DNA from: Telmatactis stephensoni
Lineage: Eukaryota > Cnidaria > Anthozoa > Actiniaria > Isophelliidae
Direction: 5' to 3'
Length of the DNA stretch: 64,000 bases
NCBI GenBank assembly: GCA_029948255.1
Contig: JALIZF010001494.1
Span: 297,704-361,703 of the forward strand
Shown here: in pieces, positions 6,279-51,733 of the stretch
Numbering within the stretch: the first letter of the stretch is position 1
Layout: every line of letters starts with the position of its first letter
Program-made: the position numbers and the translations under genes
The notes under the pieces: model-generated
What the model saw: the letters and a program-made list of their open reading frames with translations, nothing else
What the model was told of the DNA's origin: nothing
The model's database searches: none

Positions 6279-9200
6279 GTAAGTACTACCATATGCACCC
6301 ATGGCCATTTCAAGAAAAGTTGGCGGCAAACATGACTCGCCCAAAAGAGAGTATAGCTCACATGGGTTTTAGGCGTCTCGTCTTTTAACCCTTTTTGAAA
6401 TAGGTGTACGTACAATTTTTCTTATAAACAAATAAAAATGGTAATCAATGCATGGAGATTAGAATAATTAAAGCTGTTAATAAAATGGATGTAATGAATT
6501 TATGAAACAATCAAGAAAATGCATTTCAACAGTAGGTCATGGTGTACAGCTAATAAATGCACTAGCTGAGCTGACTGGAAAATATGAGTTTAGCAGCATC
6601 ACTCCGTACCATATCAGTTGCATTTCGCACTCATTCCACAGCCAGTGCGCGCGTGTATTACCACTAACGGTCATTGACGGCCGCAACAAAGTATAATAAA
6701 AATACTTTGTTGCGGCCGTCAATGGACCGTTAGTTGCCCTTCATGAGGACTACTGTGCAACATGTTCTTACGTACGTACGTACGTAGTCTTTACGCACGA
6801 ACTAATCAAGGATTAGACACGTCTAGTTGGTCCCGTATATAAGTGATAATACACGCGCACACTGGCTGTCGTTCTTGCTAAAGTTATAGTTTTCTTCATC
6901 TTACTCGTAATTGTTCAACTAAATTAAGATATCTGTCTTATATCAAAGTTTGATAGCTCTGCTTTGAAGCAAGGATAACACCGAAATTCAAATACGCCCG
7001 TAATCTTGAAAAACAGGGGGCTAGTGGGGGCAGGTCTCCTCGTGTGCAATTCTTAGGGGGAGTGTTTCAGGATTTAGGTAGCAAAGTTCCTACACATGAG
7101 GTGTCTTTTTATAATGACTCTTTTCATTTATGTTTTTCTTGTTTAGTATTGTTTAGTTTTTGTTTAGTTTTTGTTTTATCGATACCGCGGCGAAACGACT
7201 ACGCATGCGCGAGTTTTCGCGGGCTTACACGCGTCCGCGTCTTGACCGGCCACAGGAACCCCAAGCAATATTTTAGAAATTTTTTCAATATATTTTTCAA
7301 GATCATATCTTTGAGCTTAATTTTGAGCATTGATGCAAACAGGAAAGTACTTGGTGCAAAAGGCAGGCACCAGAATTCTACAGTGTCCTCAAACTGATTT
7401 TTTGGGAGACTAAAATTTGCTTCTATGGCTTAGTAGTTTTCGTCGATTTCATAATTCGCGCATGCGTGGTACATGTTGCTGCCGTTCACAGTGCACATGA
7501 TCGGATAAGTAATTTTTGGCTCAAATTGTCCCCAACTTGTATCCCACAAATTAGAAACATTTTGAATTCATAGAATTTGTCTTTAGGACCGATTTTTGCC
7601 CCGAAACAATTTTTGACGAAAACCAACAATACAAACGATCTCTGCAACAGCTTCCCACTTCATGTCACTTAGTGTGGAAAAAACAAAAGAACTCAGTTTA
7701 TTAGAGTGAATTGAATTAAATCCCCCCAGGAAAGATTTTAAGTATCATGGTACCGAACTACAGTGTTTACTGATAAATACGATAGTCCCGCTAAATGCCA
7801 AGAACGATCTATAGCGTACATGCCGCTTCACCCAAAAGGTGTTCTTACCTTATGGCGGATATTTACGTTGAATTCGGTTTTTTTGATATTCTTATAATAG
7901 CCTATAGCTTTGCGATGGAGACGATAGCGTGGTAGTAGCAATGATTAATAGGGAGACAGAGATTTCTAGTTGGTGCTTTGTCGGCAGAAATGTCGGTAAC
8001 ATATAATTCAAATTCGGTAAATGTAAAAACATGAATATCTTACTATAAAAATTATGTGTAAATGTATCTGATAAATGTGGTTTGAATTTTCCACTGGTTT
8101 AATTGCTTTCTTAATCCGCTTTCTTTTAGTTAAATAATCTAGAACGGTAGCCTAAATAGCCTATCTATATACTAGCCTTCTCCACAGGCAACCTTTTGGG
8201 CTTCCTGTGAGGCCACTACGTGTCTTTAACACAGGAGGCCCAGCGAAAAAGCGAACAGTTGCCTGCAGAGGAGGCTATATCTATACAAAATCCTGAAGTT
8301 TGGGGTCAATCGAGTCAATATTGAACGAATTACAGCTATATATTACAACCAAAATCGTTGCATCGCGACCATCAAATTACAAATTTTGTTTTGATTTTGT
8401 TTTTTTCTGAGCCGTCAATCAGTTTCGGGGCGGAACTTCTTTCAAATCAACCAATCACTGAACGATCGAGTTCGTGAAAGCTCCGCCCCCAAGAATGATG
8501 GACGGATCAGAAAAGACCAAAATCTTATACCGACGTTGGAGGTCGCGATGCAACGATTTTCGCTGTTAGAAATGGATGGTGTAGCACTGCCGGAGACAGT
8601 CGGCCGGCAATCCATACATTTCTTAGTAAATTTTGGAGTTTTTGAATGCCTGTAAATTGATCAATATTGACCCGATTAACACCAATTCACGATTTTATAT
8701 AGCTCGATGATTAGCAGAAACTCGTACCCAGTCCCCTGCACGATATGAAACTTGGCAATGGTATAAAGAGTGCATGTCAGTCTTGAGCCATTTAGTTTTT
8801 CGGTAAAACCCTTTCAGATATAGACGAATGTTCAAGAAACCCTTGTCAAAATGGCGGAACGTGTACAGATAAAGTCAACAGCTATTCTTGTACGTGTACA
8901 GCTGGATATACTGGATCTAATTGTCAAACAAGTAAGTTTAATTATTATAGTTATATGTTAAGAGAAGCCTGGCTGATGTTTAAGTTTTTTAATTTTAGAT
9001 ATCAACGAGTGCTCAAACAGCCCTTGTCAAAATGGCGGAACGTGTACAGATAAAGTGAACAGCTATTCTTGTGCGTGTATAGCAGGATATACTGGATCTA
9101 ATTGTCAAACAAGTAAGTTTAATTATTATAATTCTATGTTAAGAGAAGCCTGGCTGATGTTTAAGTTTTTTAATTTTTCAGATATCAACGAGTGCTCAAA

Positions 9201-9661
9201 CAGCCCTTGTCGAAATGGTGGAACGTGTACAGATAAAGTCAACAGCTATTCTTGTGCGTGTATAGCTGGATATACTGGATCTAATTGTCAAACAAGTAAG
9301 TTTAAGTACTATAATTCTATGTTAAGAGAAGCCTGGCTGATGTTTAAGTTTTTTAATTTTTCAGATATCAACGAGTGCTCAAGAAACCCTTGTCAAAATG
9401 GCGGAACGTGTACAGATAAAGCCAACAGCTATTCTTGTGCGTGTATAGCTGGATATACTGGATCTAATTGTCAAACAAGTAAGTTTAAGTATAATAATTC
9501 TCTGTTAGGAGAAGCTTGGCTGATGTTTAAGTATTTTAATTTTTCAGATATCAACGAGTGCTCAAGAAACCCTTGTCGAAATGGTGGAACATGCATCGAT
9601 AAATTAAACAGCTACTCTTGTAATTGTAGGTCGGAATACACTGGAGTTAACTGTGGAGTGG
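6164..9661 (+). CDS. EGF-domain protein gene (partial model, at least six EGF exons)
   Basis: Six EGF-like exons on the plus strand: 6164-6278, 8818-8931, 8999-9112, 9182-9295, 9365-9478 and 9548-9661. All are bordered by AG and GTAAGT or GTATGT. The last five are 38-codon calcium-binding EGF repeats of pattern D/N-I-N/D-E-C...C...C...CxC...C and are all phase 1-1. By family knowledge such repeats are extracellular, fold by three disulfides and bind Ca2+ between domains in secreted or membrane proteins. No signal peptide or start codon was found, so the 5' end is missing. A possible last exon at 10066-10088 would add a short Asp run and a stop. Alternatively the gene continues to the lectin exons at 31786, also phase 1. 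Domain identity is certain; the gene boundaries are not. Confidence 0.75.
6638..6869. mobile_element. palindromic element with double inverted repeats
   Basis: The outer arms are 6638-6665 (ACAGCCAGTGCGCGC...) and 6842-6869, its reverse complement with two mismatches. Inside, 6663-6694 and 6702-6734 form a 32-bp stem with a 7-nt loop and one bulged G. A TACG run lies at 6769-6786. This is a MITE-like element in the EGF intron. Confidence 0.8.
6870..8172. other. intronic stretch without recognised feature
   Basis: Lies between EGF exons 1 and 2 as modelled. I see no EGF module, RNA gene or clear repeat here. The longest frame (7044-7397) has no recognisable domain and is probably chance. Confidence 0.5.
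8173..8277. mobile_element. short palindromic MITE containing GGGCTTCCTGTG
   Basis: The ends TAGCCTTCTCCACAGGCAAC and its inverted partner (GTTGCCTGCAGAGGAGGCTA) flank a core with GGGCTTCCTGTG and its inverse CACAGGAGGCCC. The TA at both ends may be the target site. The core motif recurs in the palindrome at 31619-31731. Confidence 0.7.
8281..8702. mobile_element. 422-bp MITE with imperfect terminal inverted repeats
   Basis: The left end (CTATACAAAATCCTGAA, then GTCAATATTGA) matches the right end in inverse (CTATATAAAATCGTGAA...). An inner 20-bp pair, AAAATCGTTGCATCGCGACC at 8353-8372 and its exact inverse at 8542-8561, adds a second stem. It directly abuts the MITE at 8173-8277. Confidence 0.8.
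8818..9661 (+). repeat. five-copy tandem exon-intron repeat (about 183 bp per unit)
   Basis: Each unit is a 114-nt EGF_CA exon plus a 67- or 69-nt intron. The introns are 8932-8998 (67), 9113-9181, 9296-9364 and 9479-9547 (69 each). They are nearly identical to one another, including the AGAGAAGCCTGGCTGATG core. The fifth exon is the most diverged. The three 69-nt introns are multiples of three and lack in-frame stops, so retention would keep the frame; the 67-nt first intron would not. Confidence 0.93.
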
Positions 9662-38763: not shown

Positions 38764-39807
38764 TTATTCAACTGGAGTAATTGTTGCTGAAGCATTAATA
38801 TTAATTCGCGTAAGAATCGAAACTCCAGAACGTGGCCCATCTGAGTGATCAGGTTGCTTTGCGAACTTCAATCGAAAAATCTTGGCAAATTCGACTCGGA
38901 ATGATCGATTAAGTATTCCATAAATGAAGGGATTGATGGAACTACTGCCATATCCCATGTAAATATACATGAGATAAATCTGTCGTGGCTGGTTGACGGT
39001 GTGATCGGAAAACGTGTCAATCATGTCGATGACCGCCACCGGTGTCCAACACGCGACAAAGCCCACAACGGTAGCAAAGAGTGCCTTAGTGATATTCACT
39101 TCTTCCACATTCATTGAAGGCCCCGTAGAGCGTTCATCCCGTTGAGTTTTCATAGCCTTGGAATGAGCCTGGACTGTTTTGAAGATTCTATAGTAACAAA
39201 ACAAGGTGATGAGGATGGGGATGGTAATATAGAAGATCTTTAAGAAGATGGTGTAGGTATACGCTGCCGGTTTGGTGAGGTAATGAATATAGGAGAAGAC
39301 TTTCCCGTAGTGGAATATATAAGTAGCGAAACCGAATATCAAAGGCAGAGAAGCTCCAAGCGTTGCCATGACAATGATGATAATCAAGGAGAGAACCACC
39401 TTATTCATTGAGTTGAAATATTTTCGATACAAACTCGGTTTAACGATTCGATAAAAGCGATTGATTGCCATGGCTGTCATAGTCTGGATAGACGCCAAGG
39501 ACAGAAAGAAAGTGAAAAAGCCTTGAAATTGGATGACTTTGTCCCCATGGGTGTAAACTGGAACGATGGAAACCTCCACCGAAAGTGGCATGCATAGTAT
39601 GGCCATGAGAATGTCAAAGATTGCCAGCGCAATGATGTAGAGATTGGCCATTGTTCGTAGCTTCTTGCTTCGATATACGGCCCAACAGACCATCGAATTG
39701 CCAACTAATGCCGTCACTGTTATGCAGATAAAAATGGTTGTTTCGATTACCACAAGTGCAGTACTGCGGGCCTCCATTTGCTTTTGGTAGCGATTCGGGT
39801 CCAACAT
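38764..39807 (-). CDS. intronless class A (rhodopsin-like) GPCR, melatonin-receptor-like orphan
   Basis: A 347-residue uninterrupted frame with seven hydrophobic helices. The start ATG at 39805-39807 has A at -3 (CACCATG). Landmarks are N37 (GN in TM1), D65 (LAxxD in TM2), N116-R117-F118 at the DRY position, P197 in TM5, CWTP at 253-256 in TM6 and NPFIY at 292-296 in TM7. NRY-type motifs occur in melatonin receptors, hence the tentative label; the ligand cannot be read from sequence. Unusual points: I92 replaces the TM3 cysteine, no cysteine is in the second extracellular loop, and TM4 has no tryptophan. By family knowledge it sits in the plasma membrane and activates G proteins. Cnidarian genomes carry many such single-exon receptors. 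Confidence 0.9.
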   Translation of the reverse strand: MLDPNRYQKQMEARSTALVVIETTIFICITVTALVGNSMVCWAVYRSKKLRTMANLYIIALAIFDILMAILCMPLSVEVSIVPVYTHGDKVIQFQGFFTFFLSLASIQTMTAMAINRFYRIVKPSLYRKYFNSMNKVVLSLIIIIVMATLGASLPLIFGFATYIFHYGKVFSYIHYLTKPAAYTYTIFLKIFYITIPILITLFCYYRIFKTVQAHSKAMKTQRDERSTGPSMNVEEVNITKALFATVVGFVACWTPVAVIDMIDTFSDHTVNQPRQIYLMYIYMGYGSSSINPFIYGILNRSFRVEFAKIFRLKFAKQPDHSDGPRSGVSILTRININASATITPVE

Positions 39808-40696
39808 GGTGACAGCCTTTGTCTTCCTTTCTGTTTATGGTTTTCTTCTGAAAGAGAAGCTTCCAACCCTGACAACAAAAAGATAGTAAGAGCGAACTAT
39901 TCAGCACCAGATTTTGTTGACTTTCAGTTCATTATTACTAGTTTCTTTCTGACAAACTAATTAAACATAAAGAACCTAAGCCGATCATTTTTAACTGGCA
40001 AGTTATTAAAGCAACAATTGCTAGTTGTCATGGCAAAATAAAGCTGAATTAACGAAAACCTTCCATAATGAAGTAAAATAACAAAACCCATTCAAATATT
40101 TTCTTTCCGAATGTCACTGACATCCTCACTTCGACAAATTTGAATCACTTGGTTAGTATAGAAAATCAAATTATCCGAATGCGATTTGAAATGAAGAACG
40201 AGTGTATATATTTGAACTCAGATGAAAGGTAGAAGGCTTCTACCTTGAAAAACTATAGAGTGAGATAAATCAAACAAAATTAAAGTTAATGTCAGCTCTA
40301 TAGGAGAAATGGCGATACCTAGAGTACAAAACTAATTTGGATCAATCTAAATCTGATAACAATAAAGTAAGATGAATGAGATTTCGTGGGCTGTAATTAA
40401 GAAGCGATGGATTGCTTTCAAACCATCAGTCTTGGACTAAAAGGATCGATGCTATAAAGGATGATCTCGACGTTCTTTTCAAAAATGTAAAACGAAAGAC
40501 AAACAACGAAAAGCCAAAAATTATGCACAAGCAACCAAATAAACTAAATAAGAAATAATTTCATTTCCAAGAACAGTTCCCTTGTGGGACGTTTCTGTCT
40601 GGCAAATTGATTGTCTTGATTTGGTCTATCAGGCAGAAAAGCTAAAATTTTACTTAACGAATTAATGCAAAACAATTTGGAACACAAGACGTAGCC
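39808..40696. other. non-coding flank upstream of the GPCR
   Basis: No upstream coding exon or recognisable promoter element. AT-rich. Confidence 0.4.
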
Positions 40697-42493: not shown

Positions 42494-43403
42494 TTAAATC
42501 ATTCAACCAAAACAAACAGCGATTTTGACACTAGAAAAACAAGAAAGTATCTTGTACTTACGAAGGAAAATACAAAATTTAAGCTTTCTAAATGAAAGTA
42601 AAGCTTATTCAATCAATACGAGTCAGTTCTTATTTGAGAGTAAAATTGTCAATTGTCTCACTGGCGTAATTTGATTAACGTCCGTCTCAATGCTTGTTTT
42701 CAAACGAGACTTTGGACTTTAAAGGTCGCACTTCAAGGATAACGGTAGTAAGTAAACCATAAACTTGTAGGTTGAAATATACATTTCACAATATATTCGT
42801 ATCTCGGTCCGGTTACACGAAAAGTAGTGGACGTCTATCGGATGGTCAATTCCTTATCCATGATATATCTACTGAATAACATTTCATCCACTCGTTAACA
42901 ATCTATGTGTAGCGGACACTAAATAAATCGGATCTTAACGATTGACCAGTAACATGTATTCTTACCTGCCTCAACTTGGATGAGTTGCAGAAGGAAGACA
43001 AACAAAGCTTTTCAAATACAAGGCTAGGAAACGGAACTGTTTACAAGTCAAAATGATTCAACTAAAATCTATTGCATCTTTACAACGAAAGTCCTATTTA
43101 TCACTCTATTTCTTGTCACTTGAAAATGTCAACGATGAAACACAAAGTCATCTCAGGAAGGTAGCATTTGCTGTTAAAAAGATGTTTCCAAACAAAGTCA
43201 ACGATTTAAATGAATTTCCTAATGATTGTTTAAGAGGTAGAAACCAATTTTTGCCATTAACCAAATTTTTGGCTTTTACTGATTTGATTAACAGGATGCA
43301 ATATGACATTATTTGTTTAATATGAAAAAGAAATGCCTAAAAATAAAGAAATGAAAGCAAGAGCTGTCTTTTTCATTGATTATAATCAAAGTGCTCCTTT
43401 AAA

Positions 43404-43462
43404 GGTTGGTTTCCATATGATCAGCGATCCACGTGATCAGCGTTCATATATGGAAACCAACT
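43404..43462. mobile_element. 59-bp perfect-type hairpin MITE
   Basis: GGTTGGTTTCCATATGATCA pairs with TTCATATATGGAAACCAAC, with GATCAGCG repeated inside. Confidence 0.75.
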
Positions 43463-43530
43463 AAGTTTAATCGACGATGCAACTTTATTTTCCTGTGCAA
43501 TTGCTTCCTGCAACAAATTTGCGAATATTC

Positions 43531-43612
43531 AAACAAACAAACAAACAAACAAACAAACAAACAAACAAAGGAACAAACAAACAAAGGAACAAACAAACAA
43601 ACAAAAACAAAA
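43531..43612. repeat. (CAAA)n microsatellite
   Basis: About 15 ACAA units with GGAAC interruptions. Confidence 0.95.
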
Positions 43613-43863
43613 CAAAACAATCAAATAAACATGCAAAAAAAAGTTCAAACCCCCACATAATTCAAAGAACCGAAAAGCAGTTCTGTCAAGACGGCTGCTT
43701 GACAACGAAAAAGATTGCCAGTTCCAATTATTTACAACATAAGAAGTGACGGCCTGCTCGATATTTTAACTGTTGTTTGCAAGGTATTTTTGAGGGCTAG
43801 AGAGCTTGTCCATATATTTATTTTGTGATTTAACTCTCCACCCATCATTAGGTAATCTAAAGG

Positions 43864-45317
43864 TACGGTGGCCCAGAAGTGCAATTCACAAATACAAATT
43901 TCAAATTCACAATATACAAATTCACAATTCACAATATAAATTCAAATTCAACAAATACAAATTCAAATTCACAAATACAAATTCTAAATTCACAAATACA
44001 AATTCAAATCAATTCAGCCAAATACAAATACAAATTCCAAATTAACAACATAACAATTCAATTCCACAAATTAACGAAATTCAAATTCCACAATATTACA
44101 ACATTCAAATTCACAATATACAAATTCAAATTCAACAAATACAAATTCGTATACACGAATACAAATTCGAATACACGAATACAAATTCAAATACACGATA
44201 CAAATTCAGATACACGAATACAAATTCAGATACACGATACAAATTCGAATACACGATACAAATTCAAATACACGATACAAATTCAGGAATTTTGGAATCT
44301 GCAGAATGTGGGCTGAACCAACCACAGCAAGCCCATCCAAAAAATTAAAAAGTTTTTTATTTAGTTCAGGAGGAAGTGGAATATTCCTGAGGTTTGTTTT
44401 CTTTCTTTTAGCTCTGGTTTGCGGTTAAGTTTGTAAGAAAGGAAAGGGCTTTTGAAACATCTATTTTTTGGACGGGGGAGAAATGAGTGTTATTTATTCA
44501 CTCTACACATTATTCTATTTTTACAAATTACTACCTAATCTTGATTTCTTTTATGATAACTGTTATAAAGTTGCCTTGATATCCTGTACTTTCAACTTTT
44601 TACTTAGCATTTTTCAAAAGAAAGCTTTATATTTCTTTATATTTTCTTTTTTTTTTTTTTCTTTATTTCTATCAACTCGACCGATTTGTGTTTCTCCCCC
44701 GTCCAAAAAATAGATATTTCAAAAACCCTTTCCTTTCTTACAAACTTTACCGCAAACCCGAGCTAAAAGAAAGAATACAAACCTCAGGAATATTCCACCT
44801 CCCCCTCGCGGTCGTCTGAACTATAACCACCCCTCCCCCCTCGCGGTCGTCTGAACTAAATAAGGATGGGCTTGCTGTTGTTGGTTCAGACCACATTCTG
44901 CAGATTCCAAACATACGTACCTGAATTTGTATCGTGTATCTGAATTTGTATCGTGTCTTCGAATTTGTATCGTGTATTCGAATTTGTATTCGTGTATTCG
45001 AATTTGTATTTGTGTATTTGAATTTGTATTCGTGTATTTGAATTTGTATCGTGTATTTGAATTTGTATTTGTGAATTTGAATTTGTATTTGTGACTTTGA
45101 ATTTGTATTTGTGAATTTGAATTTGTATGCGTGTATTTGAATTTGTGTTCGTGTATTTCGAATTTGCATTCGTGTATTCGAATTTGCATTCGTGTATTTG
45201 AATTTGTATTTGTGTATTTGAATTTGTATTCGTGTATTCGAATTTGTATGCGTGTATGTGAATTTGTATTCGTGAATTCGAATTTGTATTTGTGTATTGC
45301 ACTTGTGGGCCACCGTA
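43864..45317. mobile_element. foldback element with satellite-like arms, copy 1
   Basis: The tips TACGGTGGCCCAGAAGTGCA and its inverse (GCACTTGTGGGCCACCGTA) bound two ~620-bp inverted arms. Each arm has three parts from the outside in. First is a variable array of 19-20-bp units of consensus GAATACACGAATACAAATTC. Next is a unique segment (GAATCTGCAGAATGTG...). Last is a segment with TAGCTCTGGTTTGCGG and TTTTTTGGACGGGGGAGAAA, about 93% matched to its partner. The loop is about 200 bp (44488-44689). Array frames reading Thr-Asn-Ser-Asn are artefacts. No transposase and no target duplication seen. The layout recalls FB/foldback transposons (family knowledge). Confidence 0.85.
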
Positions 45318-46164
45318 GTTCCGTCCCTTAGTTCAGCAGTAGGGCAGAAACGTTTACCGCAGAAACCGGCCCATCTGAAAGATTAACAGCTAGTGTGGGT
45401 CTTGATTGGTCTTGATATTGGCCTTATTGTTATAGAAAAAGTCATATATTCCCTATTCCTTATTTATTTCGGTATGCAAAAATTCAATATTCCTTCAGCT
45501 TCTTTATTCAATATTCCGCTTCTACCAACTCCGAAAATAAGACTGAACTCAGGCCCTAACTCATGCCTCACAAACAACAACAGCGTATTATGTCTATTAC
45601 ACTGCTATAGGTACAAAAAGATTTCCATTCATCACTTACTTGCAGTTCAAGACGAAACAATGAACCAATATAACATTTCGCTTTCTTCGATGTTTGGAAA
45701 TTTGTACAAGTCCGTTTCCTACGTTGGAAATATGTATGAAATAAGCAGGAAATTTGTATTTCTCACCATAAGAAATTTCGATTTCCTGCATATTTTCAAT
45801 TGTTTGAAAATTCATTTTCCTATATATTTCCAGCGGTAGCTAGGAAAATATATTTCCAGTGCCAGTCTTTGTGTGGAGTACATTTCTTTGTTTGAAATGC
45901 TTGATTAGGAACTGAAGACAAGAAAGAATGTTCACCTCGGACGAAGAATCTTATTCCTCAAAAGGAATGCAGTGGGAAAACATTGAGGAAATTCGATCAG
46001 GTCTATCATTGTATCAATAAATTAGGGTAAAAACATCACATGTTCAATTAAGTCAAACATTTTGTTGACAAATTTTCCGAACCTCCCAGAACGGGAAATA
46101 ATTGCGAAGCGACCGGTCCCTTTTTGAAGGCTTCAAAGGTTTTTAGACCTGGTATACAAAAAAT

Positions 46165-46179
46165 AACAGACAAAAAAAA

Positions 46180-46219
<40 letters not shown>

Positions 46220-46226
46220 AAAAAGA
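46165..46226. repeat. poly(A) tract, copy 1
   Basis: About 45 A with few interruptions after AAATAACAGACAAAA. Confidence 0.95.
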
Positions 46227-46703
46227 AAAAAGGCCGCCTTATTGTTAAAGTATTGGTGTAAATTAAAAATCATAGAAAATATTTCATAAGAATGTAATTA
46301 ATGGCCGATGATTGGTGCCGTACTTTTATTGCAGCTTTACTAATAATAAACTTTAAAATGGCGAGGAAACATGCACGGAAAACAACTATTCTTTGCTACC
46401 GAAAATATATGTTACTCGGTTTATTTCAAACTTCGATATTTTTAATACTTTCTTGATACCCCTAAATTATGAAACCACCTATTTTTTTATGATCTCACCA
46501 ACATTTTCTTTACCTGTTAGTAGTTTTAGATCTCTCTTTCATCGATCAGTTGCGAAAAACGCTCTGTGAATTAGGCCAGAAAACTTGGATTTATCGGTCG
46601 TCACGACGATATTAGAGACCTTAAGTTTGACGATTTTGGCAAACCGCTAACGACAAACGGTGGTTTGGTGGTTGCCATTTGCCGTTAACGTCAATTTTAA
46701 GGT

Positions 46704-48505
46704 TTACACGAACACAAATTCAAATACACGAATACAAATTCAAATACACAAATACAAATTCGTATACACGAATACAAATTCGAATACACGATACAAATTC
46801 AAATACACAAATACAAATTCGAATACACGATACAAATTCGAATACACGATACAAATTCAAATACACAAATACAAATTCGTATACACGAATACAAATTCGA
46901 ATACACGATACAAATTCAAATACACAAATACAAATTCACAAATTTCACAATACAAATTCATAATTCCACAAATCAAAATTCAAATTCCAAATACAAATTC
47001 AAATTGCACAATGCAAATTACAATTCAATTTCAACAAATACAAATTCAATTTCCAATAAAATTCAATTCAAATTCAACTTCCAATTCACAAATACGAATT
47101 CAAACTTACACAATATACAAATTCAAATTCACAAATACAAATTCAAATTCGCAAATACAAATTCAAAATTCAAATTCACAAATACAAATTCACAAATACA
47201 AATAAAAATTCAAATTCACAAATACAAATTCAAATCACAAATACAAATTCAAATTCACAATATACAAATTCAAATTCACAAATACAAATTCAAATTCGCA
47301 AATACAAATACAAATTCAAATACACAAATACAAATTCGAATACACGATACAAATTCAAATACACAAATACAAATTCGTATACACAAATACAAATTCGAAT
47401 GCACGATACAAATTCGAATACACGATACAAATTCAGATACACGATACAAATTCAGGAATTTTGGAATCTGCAGAATGTGGGCTGAACCAACCACAGCAAG
47501 CCCATCCAAAAAATTAAAAAGTTTTTTATTTAGTTCAGGAGGAAGTGGAATATTCCTGAGATTTGTTTTCTTTCTTATAATAATAATAATACTTTATTTA
47601 ATTCACAGTATATTACAAAAAATATATACACAGTCTTTTAGCTCTGGTTTGCGGTAAAGTTTGTAAGAAAGGAAAGGGCTTTTGAAACATCTATTTTTTG
47701 GACGGGGGAGAAATGAGTGTTATTTATTCACTCTACACATTATTCTATTTTTACAAATTACTACCTAATCTTGATTTCTTTTATGATAACTGTTATAAAG
47801 TTGCCTTGATATCCTGTACTTTCAACTTTTTACTTAGCATTTTTCAAAAGAAAGCTTTATATTTCTTTATATTTTCTTTTTTTTTTTTCTTTATTTCTAT
47901 CAACTCGACCGATTTGTGTTTCTCCCCCGTCCAAAAAATAGATATTTCAAAAACCCTTTCCTTTCTTACAAACTTTACCGCAAACCCGAGCTAAAAGAAA
48001 GAATACAAACCTCAGGAATATTCCACCTCCCCCCTCGCGGTCGTCTGAACTATAACCACCCCTCCCCCCTCGCGGTCGTCTGAACTAAATAAGGATGGGC
48101 TTGCTGTTGTTGGTTCAGACCACATTCTGCAGATTCCAAACATACGTACCCGAATTTGTATCGTGTATCTGAATTTGTATCGTGTCTTCGAATTTGTATC
48201 GTGTATTCGAATTTGTATTCGTGTATTCGAATTTGTATTCGTGTATTCGAATTTGTATTTGTGTATTTGAAATTTGAATTTGTATTTGCGAATTTGAATT
48301 TGTATTTGTGAATTTGAATTTGTATTTGTGAATTTGAATTTGTATTGTGAATTTGTAATTGTATTTCGAATTTGCATTCGTGTATTTGAATTTGTATTTG
48401 TGTATTTGAATTTGTATTCGTGTATTCGAATTTGTATGCGTGTATGTGAATTTGTATTCGTGAATTCGAATTTGTATTTGTGTATTGCACTTGTGGGCCA
48501 CCGTA
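46704..48505. mobile_element. foldback element, copy 2 (left tip lost)
   Basis: Same structure as copy 1: a longer left array (46704-47450), inner arms, loop (about 47725-47925) and right arm ending GGGCCACCGTA at 48505. The left tip is missing because the duplication junction at 46703/46704 cuts inside the array. A ~61-bp insertion at 47576-47636 is absent from copy 1. Array lengths also differ between copies. Confidence 0.85.
47576..47636 (-). mobile_element. short retroposon 3'-end insertion, only in copy 2
   Basis: On the minus strand it reads ...GAATTAAATAAAGTATTATTATTATTAT-type sequence, that is an AATAAAG followed by a TTA-repeat tail, as at the 3' end of many SINE/LINE elements. The repeated CTT on both sides may be a short target duplication. 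The matching site in copy 1 (about 44413) is empty. Confidence 0.72.
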
Positions 48506-49365
48506 GTTCCGTCCCTTAGTTCAGCAGTAGGGCAGAAACGTTTCCCGCCTACGCCGCAGAAACCGGCCCATCTGAAAGATTAACAGCTAGTGTGGGTCTT
48601 GATTGGTCTTGATATTGGCCTTATTGTTATAGAAAAAGTCATATATTCCCTATTCCTTATTTATTTCGGTATGCAAAAATTCAATATTCCTTCAGCTTCT
48701 TTATTCAATATTCCGCTTCTACCAACTCCGAAAATAAGACTGAACTCAGGCCCTAACTCATGCCTCACAAACAACAACAGCGTATTATGTCTATTACACT
48801 GCTATAGGTACAAAAAGATTTCCATTCATCACTTACTTGCAGTTCAAGACGAAACAATGAACCAATATAACATTTCGCTTTCTTCGATGTTTGGAAATTT
48901 GTACAAGTCCGTTTCCTACGTTGGAAATATGTATGAAATAAGCAGGAAATTTGTATTTCTCACCATAAGAAATTTCGATTTCCTGCATATTTTCAATTGT
49001 TTGAAAATTCATTTTCCTATATATTTCCAGCGGTAGCTAGGAAAATATATTTCCAGTGCCAGTCTTTGTGTGGAGTACATTTCTTTGTTTGAAATGCTTG
49101 ATTAGGAACTGAAGACAAGAAAGAATGTTCACCTCGGACGAAGAATCTTATTCCTCAAAAGGAATGCAGTGGGAAAACATTGAGGAAATTCGATCAGGTC
49201 TATCATTGTATCAATAAATTAGGGTAAAAACATCACATGTTCAATTAAGTCAAACATTTTGTTGACAAATTTTCCGAACCTCCCAGAACGGGAAATAATT
49301 GCGAAGCGACCGGTCCCTTTTTGAAGGCCTCAAAGGTTTTTAGACCTGGTATACAAAAAATAACA

Positions 49366-49396
49366 GACAAAAAGACCACAAAAAAAAAAAGAAAAA

Positions 49397-49450
<54 letters not shown>

Positions 49451-49462
49451 AAAAAGAAAAAA
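49366..49462. repeat. poly(A) tract, copy 2
   Basis: About 80 A with G interruptions, at the position equivalent to 46165-46226. Confidence 0.95.
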
Positions 49463-49845
49463 GGCCGCCTTATTGTTAAAGTATTGGTGTAAATTAAAAA
49501 TCATAGAAAATATTTCATAAGAATGTAATTAATGGCCGATGATTGGTGCCGTACTTTTATTGCAGCTTTACTAATAATAAACTTTAAAATGGCGAGGAAA
49601 CATGCACGGAAAACAACTATTCTTTGCTACCGAAAATATATGTTACTCGGTTTATTTCAAACTTCGATATTTTTAATACTTTCTTGATACCCCTAAATTA
49701 TGAAACCACCTATTTTTTTATGATCTCACCAACATTTTCTTTACCTGTTAGTAGTTTTAGATCTCTCTTTCATCGATCAGTTGCGAAAAACGCTCTGTGA
49801 ATTAGGCCAGAAAACTTGGATTTATCGGTCGTCACGACGATATTA

Positions 49846-49937
49846 GAGACCTTAAGTTTGACGATTTTGGCAAACCGCTAACGACAAACGGTGGTTTGGT
49901 GGTTGCCATTTGCCGTTAACGTCAATTTTAAGGTCTC
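49846..49937. mobile_element. 92-bp MITE with GAGACCTTAA tips (intact copy)
   Basis: Tips GAGACCTTAAGTTTGACG and CGTCAATTTTAAGGTCTC are inverse with few mismatches and are flanked by TA at 49844-49845 and 49938-49939. The copy-1 equivalent (46616-46703) lacks its last few bases. Same tip as 31234-31598. Confidence 0.83.
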
Positions 49938-51733
49938 TATCATAAAACGGGGTGGCTTGTGTGAAGTAAGCGTTGCTTGTACAGTTATCTCAAGTTTGTG
50001 TGGTTATTAAGTGCAAATATTTTTTTCTTTTTCTTTTTCAAAAGCACCGAAAGTAGGTTTGGTAAAATTCCAGCTCTGCTTTTTCTTCAAGCGCGTCGCC
50101 AATGAATACTTGTTTAATTTGGACGCAAGTAATTATAACTTTCAGATTTGACAAATTACACAAATATTTCCCTTGTTACATAAAACACAAGTGTTATTAA
50201 AACATTTTTAATTAAAATCATTTTTGTTCTCTTTTCTTTCGCCCCCTCTCCCTCAAACCCCAAGAAAAACTTAATTTACCGAACGCTTGCATTTAAGAAC
50301 CATAGTTATTAAGCAAACTTAAATTTCTCCGACTTTGAATCACTTGGTTAGATGAGATGACATTGCAAACAAAGCGGCCTTCATTTGCAGAAGTATACTT
50401 TAATATATTACACTAAAAGTACTCCACCTTTCCGTTGTTTATCAAACTAACTTGACAAATTTTAACAAAACGTGATAACTCTGCTGGGAGTGCTCGTAGA
50501 ACATTTTCGAGGGTATTTTTTCCGGGCGCTATTTTAAGGTAACGACATGAATGAGGTGAAATTCAATATCCACAAGTACAATTGCTGCCATAATGGTGGC
50601 CATATGGAAGTACCAAATGAAAATCAATTTTTCTAATTAATATAGGGGAAATACCTAATTTATCATTAACAATACGTTCGCATTTTATTCTCATATTCAA
50701 CCGGTTTAAAACAAAGGTACCATCAATGTCAAGCAACACCCAACACATAGTTTCCCTAGGTGATTATTTACCTTCCAAGACGCCAATATCGAACGGTCGA
50801 CAGCTTGCAGTAATGAACAATTAAGAAAAAAGTAGAAAAAAGATTGAGAGAAATTGAATAAAAAGCAACTCGGTTAAATGGCATCGAAGAAAAGTGATCA
50901 ATTACAAAACAAAAGAGGAGAGAACTGACATGGGCGCTTTTATTCTTTGAAATTGAAATTCGAAAACAAAAATTATAAACGAGTCATGCATAAACATAAA
51001 AAAGTACATATTTCTTTAAATAATATGTCAATTTAATCTTTCTCAGAGAAATGTCTGTATAACTGTTTAGGCTTCTTGGCCAATACCTGCAAATTTTCCG
51101 GTTTTAAGGCGGAAAAACTAATGAATGTATTTAGTAAAGAAACTGCTTGTTAAGCTGATTTGCAAGTGGCTGAAATTTAGTTTGTCAAGAACCAGTGGTT
51201 TAAATATTCCAATTTATTGCAAGGAGGCAAAAAGATATATAAACTTACCTTGATTGATTTGTTATAGTATCCACCTTCACGCTTCAATTCACTTTGCTCA
51301 CCTGATAACGCTTTGAACAATTTGTGCAGCCTGTCACTGAACGGTGTACGTCATATAAGAACACGTTCTAACGTTTCCGTGGCAACACACCCGTCTTTCT
51401 ATTCTATATCACTTTCTTTAAGTAACAAGGTTCTTTTTTAGATAATTTCATTAAACACACAAAGGAATTTTTACTTAAAGAAATAATGGTATTTCTCAAG
51501 AGGATCATCGAAAATGGGGATAATAAGTTGTTCAATGAATGATGTATAATGAGTCATTCAGAGAGGAAGGCCGAATCTCCAAACTGATTAATATCTTTTT
51601 TTTCTTTTTACTATTTTTTCTTTTCTTTTTTGTTTTTAATTATATTTTGCTTTTTATTGTCAAGCTCTTTTGCACTTGATACGGCAAAAATATGAGAATT
51701 GCTCTGCCAAATTTAAGAGAGGATGTTTAAGAA
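49938..51733. other. non-coding stretch without recognised feature
   Basis: AT-rich with no domain-bearing frame. A T-rich tract is at 51595-51660. Confidence 0.4.

Follow-up and report, generated by a model that had tools for sequence, protein, structure and literature searches.

Foldback elements have been linked with inversions and, in the case of Tetris, with the origin of a satellite. The FB/NOF elements of Drosophila show the same foldback layout as the element described here, but their target duplications are approximately 9 bp long and their ends are unlike those of our element, while Galileo generates target duplications of 7 bp. Galileo, which belongs to the P superfamily, likewise has long arms with tandem repeats, and some of these repeats bind the THAP domain of the transposase, the arm having four long direct repeats, of which the first two contain the sites (PMC3688188); it differs from the present element in its ends and in that the binding sites lie in long direct repeats and not in repeats of 20 bp. 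Tetris, from Drosophila virilis, also combines long inverted arms carrying internal tandem repeats with a variable, non-coding middle, is represented by few complete copies and varies in array length between alleles, but has a unit of approximately 220 bp, target duplications of 8–10 bp and satellite-like arrays that were demonstrated by its authors (PMC4079207).

The foldback-type elements compared here belong to groups other than IS3EU. Fungal IS3EU elements create 6-bp duplications and have terminal inverted repeats of more than 30 bp ending in TAYGG..CCRTA (PMC12730594), and complete IS3EU families always have TA..TA termini and usually 6-bp duplications, with GingerRoot grouped in the same lineage (PMC10045372). 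The fungal element Styx, which has an IS3EU-type transposase, shares the 6-bp target duplications and has been tied to chromosome rearrangements, but it is approximately 8 kb long with four coding sequences, and foldback arms are not mentioned in the consulted part of its description (PMC10853768). A connection between tandem repeats and IS3EU has also been reported before: in an oyster, two satellites of 690 and 129 bp are labelled DNA/IS3EU (PMC8268682), and one half of the beetle satellite TCAST10 is 86% similar to an IS3EU element (PMC5844308). The units of these satellites are, however, much longer than 20 bp, and foldback arms are not described in the relevant portions of either report (PMC8268682, PMC5844308).

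The locus studied here lies in a stretch of 64,000 nucleotides from Telmatactis stephensoni, referred to as the window. A preliminary description, made from the sequence alone, had proposed a foldback element at 43864–45317, with matched tips, arms of about 620 bp built on a 19–20-bp satellite, inner segments of about 93% identity and a loop of about 200 bp. These coordinates proved exact, and the stretch is a palindromic foldback element of 1454 bp from tip to tip. Its inverted tips match exactly (TACGGTGGCCCA/TGGGCCACCGTA), giving ends that in short form read TACGGTGGCC..GGCCACCGTA, i.e. of the TACGG..CCGTA type. The arms measure 627 and 633 bp and are identical at 530 of 589 ungapped columns of their alignment, which scored 793 compared to −4 to 70 in ten shuffles, and the innermost arms are 207 nt apart. 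The array has a period of 20 bp, and the inner segments are complementary at 94% over 116 nt and 96% over 48 nt. Folded as single-stranded DNA, the region 44284–44925 reached −190.6 kcal/mol, against −53.5 kcal/mol (sd 4.0) for 20 shuffles. The layout is accordingly that of a foldback element, in which a variable middle is enclosed by long inverted arms that contain tandem repeats, and the features of the locus, including a second version found on another contig (C39), are as follows.

43864–45317, + strand: complete foldback element, 1454 bp
43864–43885, + strand: left terminal inverted repeat, the 'G-end', TACGGTGGCCCAGAAGTGCAAT
43883–44285, + strand: left 20-bp array, about 20 copies, irregular at about 43900–44130 compared to C39
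44291–44338, + strand: left inner conserved segment, containing CTGCAGAATGTGGGCTGAACCAACCACAGCAAGCCCATCC, present at most ends of copies
44368–44483, + strand: left half of the inner palindromic core, 94% complementary to 44691–44806
44484–44690, no strand: loop, 207 bp
44691–44806, − strand: right half of the inner palindromic core
44864–44911, − strand: right inner conserved segment, 96% complementary to 44291–44338
44922–45298, − strand: right 20-bp array, 19 copies
45296–45317, − strand: right terminal inverted repeat, the 'C-end', TACGGTGGCCCACAAGTGCAAT
46703–48505, + strand: partial second copy, left tip missing, with left array 46705–47454 (about 37 copies), right array 48151–48486 and right tip 48494–48505
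47633–49933, + strand: tandem duplicate of 44403–46702, missing where C39 carries this locus

The tip TACGGTGGCCCA was found in the window at 43864–43875 (+), 45306–45317 (−) and 48494–48505 (−), all three exact; the count by itself is within chance, as 1.47 occurrences with up to two mismatches are expected and 17 of 100 shuffles reached three. The irregularity of the left array is largely missing from C39, where the array is regular, and may thus reflect decay, a haplotype difference or an assembly or consensus error.

The preliminary description had proposed a search for further copies with the same tips, and dispersed copies were indeed found when the genome (483,535,264 bases in 1782 contigs) was searched. 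The inner 631 bp matched eight contigs beyond the window, namely C39 (the same locus), C705, C19, C530, C163, C233, C318 and C122. The best matches, on C705, C19, C530, C163 and C233, were 94–97% identical, suggesting that the family is probably fairly young. Both tips were present at the window locus (also on C39) and on C705, C318, C163 (where the right tip is damaged), C19 and C233, with lengths of approximately 1.2–9.9 kb, and the copies sit in different flanks. The long copies on C19 (6.6 kb), C233 (9.9 kb) and C530 (approximately 9.6 kb or more, the right tip not being found) contain other tandem repeats, and among the nine longest matches listed per pair their interiors had no match in common except the palindromic core. 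On C530 the core is detached from the left arm as a separate module (L031 9085–9923), and in this stretch an inserted sequence separates off a portion of the right array, which stops without a tip. Searches with the tip or array patterns gave no match in viral and prokaryote contig collections, nor did the inner segment in a plasmid collection, and no inference is drawn from this.

The two ends of the element are not equivalent. The G-tip was accompanied by CCACAGC and the C-tip by CAACAGC at 14 of the 16 ends where tip and inner segment were readable, a count to which the window, its duplicate and C39 contribute non-independent entries; the exceptions were the right ends of C318 and C163. That this end-specific pairing is kept across copies argues that the whole unit moves, rather than each palindrome arising on the spot.

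The tips are enriched throughout the genome, with the 22-bp tip found at 44 places (up to two mismatches) compared to one for the reversed control, and the exact 12-mer occurring 499 times compared to six. Among the first 100 of the 499, neighbouring tips less than 12 kb apart faced inward in 20 cases, outward in none and the same way in one. Moreover, a perfect 6-bp target duplication flanked 14 of 27 tip pairs, while none of 702 mismatched combinations of left and right flanks did so. The remaining pairs comprised three that match at 5 of 6 bases, nine, including the window locus, at no more than 4 of 6, and one with a 7-bp duplication (C833). For 15 of the 27 pairs the flanks were taken from 50-base ends, and for the other 12 from longer loci; the pairs include C253 and C14:843116, which have common flanks, and the window locus was entered once, via C39. 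The pair on C27, 77 bp from tip to tip and without a duplication, is counted among the 20 inward pairs and was excluded from the 27, since an array lies beyond it, an indication that the pair does not delimit a whole element. The search with the 22-bp tip gave 28 further loci, of which 8 were read as long stretches and 10 + 5 as short ones. Elements of 251–280 bp with these tips were also observed (L044 736–986 and L057 301–580); as these places share their flanks, the short elements probably lie inside a larger repeat.

Within the window's own family, four of six loci carry a perfect 6-bp duplication (C705, C318, C19 and C163) and C233 matches at 5 of 6 bases, while the window copy lacks a target duplication, matching at 1 of 6. 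The perfect score of C163 required an apparent 8-bp insertion in the right tip to be skipped by hand; otherwise the overall count is 13 of 27. The check for target duplications proposed in the preliminary description thus came out positive for the group and negative for the copy that had motivated it. The missing duplication, together with the variable array lengths in the arms, is what would be expected of an immobile palindrome that arose where it now lies when a satellite array was duplicated in inverted orientation. This is nevertheless an extremely improbable origin, as tips, arms and inner segments recur at other loci with end-specific variants preserved and duplications intact at most of the family loci, and it is already contradicted by these dispersed copies. 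Insertion of a unit is therefore favoured over the local inversion that the preliminary description had named as the alternative, and we regard the copies as a real family of non-autonomous foldback transposons.

The ends and the duplications indicate, with good confidence, that the element is a DNA transposon of the cut-and-paste type, non-autonomous and with a foldback architecture, and that it most likely belongs to the IS3EU/GingerRoot superfamily, which has an integrase-like DDE transposase. Both window tips agree exactly with the TA..TA termini of IS3EU and with the TAYGG..CCRTA of the fungal set, the arms by far exceed 30 bp, and 6-bp duplications characterise the tip-sharing group, though not the window copy. 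The assignment is drawn from ends and duplications, as no transposase, and hence no autonomous relative with the same tips such as the preliminary description had envisaged, was found among the copies examined; this sets them apart from IS3EU/GingerRoot elements, as do the arms of approximately 20-bp arrays and the palindromic core, which are not mentioned for IS3EU in the consulted parts of two accounts (PMC12730594, PMC10045372). The likeness to Drosophila FB-type elements noted in the preliminary description therefore holds for the layout, while the duplications and the ends fit IS3EU/GingerRoot instead.

An affiliation with a superfamily known for the foldback layout (Drosophila FB, Tetris, or Galileo of the P superfamily), or with another one making 6-bp duplications, e.g. 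hAT6, appears improbable. Tetris (PMC4079207) and Galileo (PMC3688188) do have the same long inverted arms, internal tandem repeats and variable middle, hAT6 does produce 6-bp duplications (PMC12730594), and the C833 pair has one of 7 bp. The duplications of Tetris, however, measure 8–10 bp (PMC4079207) against the 6 bp found at 14 of our 27 pairs, and TACGG..CCGTA corresponds to the ends published for IS3EU (PMC12730594). The least excluded of the rival superfamilies is hAT6, for which the comparison covered the duplication length, and this fits. Other assignments were considered and rejected: a Tc1/mariner-like reading, with a TA target duplication and a CGGTGGCCCA inverted repeat, because other copies show 6-bp duplications outside TACGG; Dada, described as having no terminal inverted repeats; and IS481EU, described with TG-type ends and duplications of approximately 4, 15 or 25 bp. 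The 6-bp duplication and long repeats would fit a Polinton as well. Polintons are 15–25 kb long and contain polymerase and capsid genes. Neither the listed frames nor the ten that were scanned included a gene of this type, and the two-tipped copies measure 1.2–9.9 kb, which would also fit a non-autonomous derivative. The coral CMITEs, finally, were set aside since they have TTAA duplications (PMC2872659).

The search for coding capacity covered several groups of copies. No Pfam model scored above the curated cut-off with any of ten frames (six from C530, two from C233, one from C19 and one from beside C122), and the long copies on C19, C233 and C530 were rejected as autonomous partners because, beyond translated arrays, they contain no large frame. 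Three other loci (L068 81–4416, L069 81–4459 and L050 860–6122) are non-coding elements of 4.3–5.3 kb with the same tips and subterminal arrays of 40 bp (2 × 20); L068 and L069 also carry internal 10-bp CTTGCGTCGT repeats. Stop-to-stop frames reach at most 223 aa in L050, L068 and L069 (5.3, 4.3 and 4.4 kb), and these three, as non-coding elements, were rejected as partners too. Tips spaced like theirs were frequent among neighbouring tips less than 12 kb apart in the first 100 of the 499, the paired tips of this group being mostly approximately 3.5–5.6 kb apart.

Several other families have the same tip but different arrays, mostly of approximately 20 bp. The periods are at or near 20 or 40 in C257, C363, C833 and kin, C338 and C27, although that of C363 is weak (0.42 compared to 0.36 when shuffled). 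Not all tip loci follow this pattern: the arrays of C1172, C134 and C43 have periods of 14, 18 and 32, C23 holds a 20-bp unit in 2.3 copies, C139 has short arrays of 23 and 33 bp, and behind the tips of C691 and C141 the survey, part of which gave high-scoring arrays only, reported no such array. Six unit consensus strings were identical at 9 to 16 of 20 positions in their best rotation. The units of the window and C833 share 9 positions, compared to a shuffled mean of 10.5, while certain other pairs are more alike than shuffled strings, which may point to a common origin for part of the units.

A possible explanation of this arrangement, by analogy with Galileo, is that the arrays would serve as docking sites with a preferred spacing. 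A transposase encoded elsewhere would recognise the tip of approximately 22 bp, the repeats behind it, one per two turns of DNA, could help the enzyme to dock, and cleavage at the tips would be followed by insertion with a 6-bp stagger. Slippage and unequal exchange would then lengthen and shorten the repeats. The long inverted arms would render the locus prone to rearrangement, which could explain why the window has a tandem duplication and why its copy lacks a target duplication. We further suggest, as a doubtful proposal, that the transposase reads the tip and that the spacing of the repeats matters rather than their sequence, forming a phased landing array; the repeat sequence would then be replaceable, and foldback arms could arise repeatedly within the IS3EU group. 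Tip-sharing families within a single genome provide a natural experiment on the function of the repeats, and a foldback layout on IS3EU-type ends would suggest independent evolution in an integrase-like superfamily.

Array length also differs between copies, with up to approximately 45 units in C318 and approximately 37 in the second copy of the window. The element is a candidate source of satellite DNA, as the preliminary description proposed, and its arrays differ in length between the two arms. In the window, the 20-bp unit (up to three errors) was found only within the two copies, one match beginning 1 base before the second. It is plausible that the family is undescribed: a full-text literature search for the tip core yielded no paper on a transposon, as judged from the title and the opening of the abstract, and literature searches by topic yielded no description of the element.

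The partial second copy had been overlooked in the preliminary description. It forms part of a tandem duplication with a spacing of approximately 3.2 kb that takes in the right half of the element and its right flank, and the two stretches (44403–46702 and 47633–49933) differ by 17 mismatches and 7 indels by alignment, or 15 mismatches by BLAST. The duplication may represent a haplotype difference or an assembly error. That it is an assembly artefact, with two haplotypes joined head to tail, has in our estimate slightly less than an even chance. C39, which matches the window in pieces over 42744–50771 and is either an allele or a large duplication, carries the locus in reverse orientation with a single element, and the low divergence of the duplicated copies over approximately 2.3 kb is as expected of two haplotypes. 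In addition, some haplotypes seem to have been kept separate in the assembly, since a stretch of 2980 bases is nearly identical (99.7%) in C253 and C556. The junction, on the other hand, lies at one defined point, 46702/46703, where a short MITE-like repeat abuts the array, and the second copy has a private insertion of approximately 62 bp at about 47575, although neither proves that the duplication is real. This insertion (about 47575–47640), which is missing from the first copy, begins with TTATAATAATAATAATACTTTATT and looks like a retroelement tail. The MITE-like repeat (46613–46702) has inverted ends TAGAGACCTTAA/TTAAGGTCTCTA and is complete at 49844–49939, the junction falling approximately 6 bp short of the end of its first occurrence.

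Elsewhere in the window, an EGF-like exon is tandemly repeated at 8812–9621 (183 bp, 4.4 copies). A receptor gene with a single uninterrupted frame was observed on the − strand at 38764–39834, with relatives in Actinia and Nematostella named melatonin-receptor-like; the best named matches of its frame (38767–39834) were from Actinostola (80% identity), Actinia tenebrosa (73%) and Nematostella (64%).
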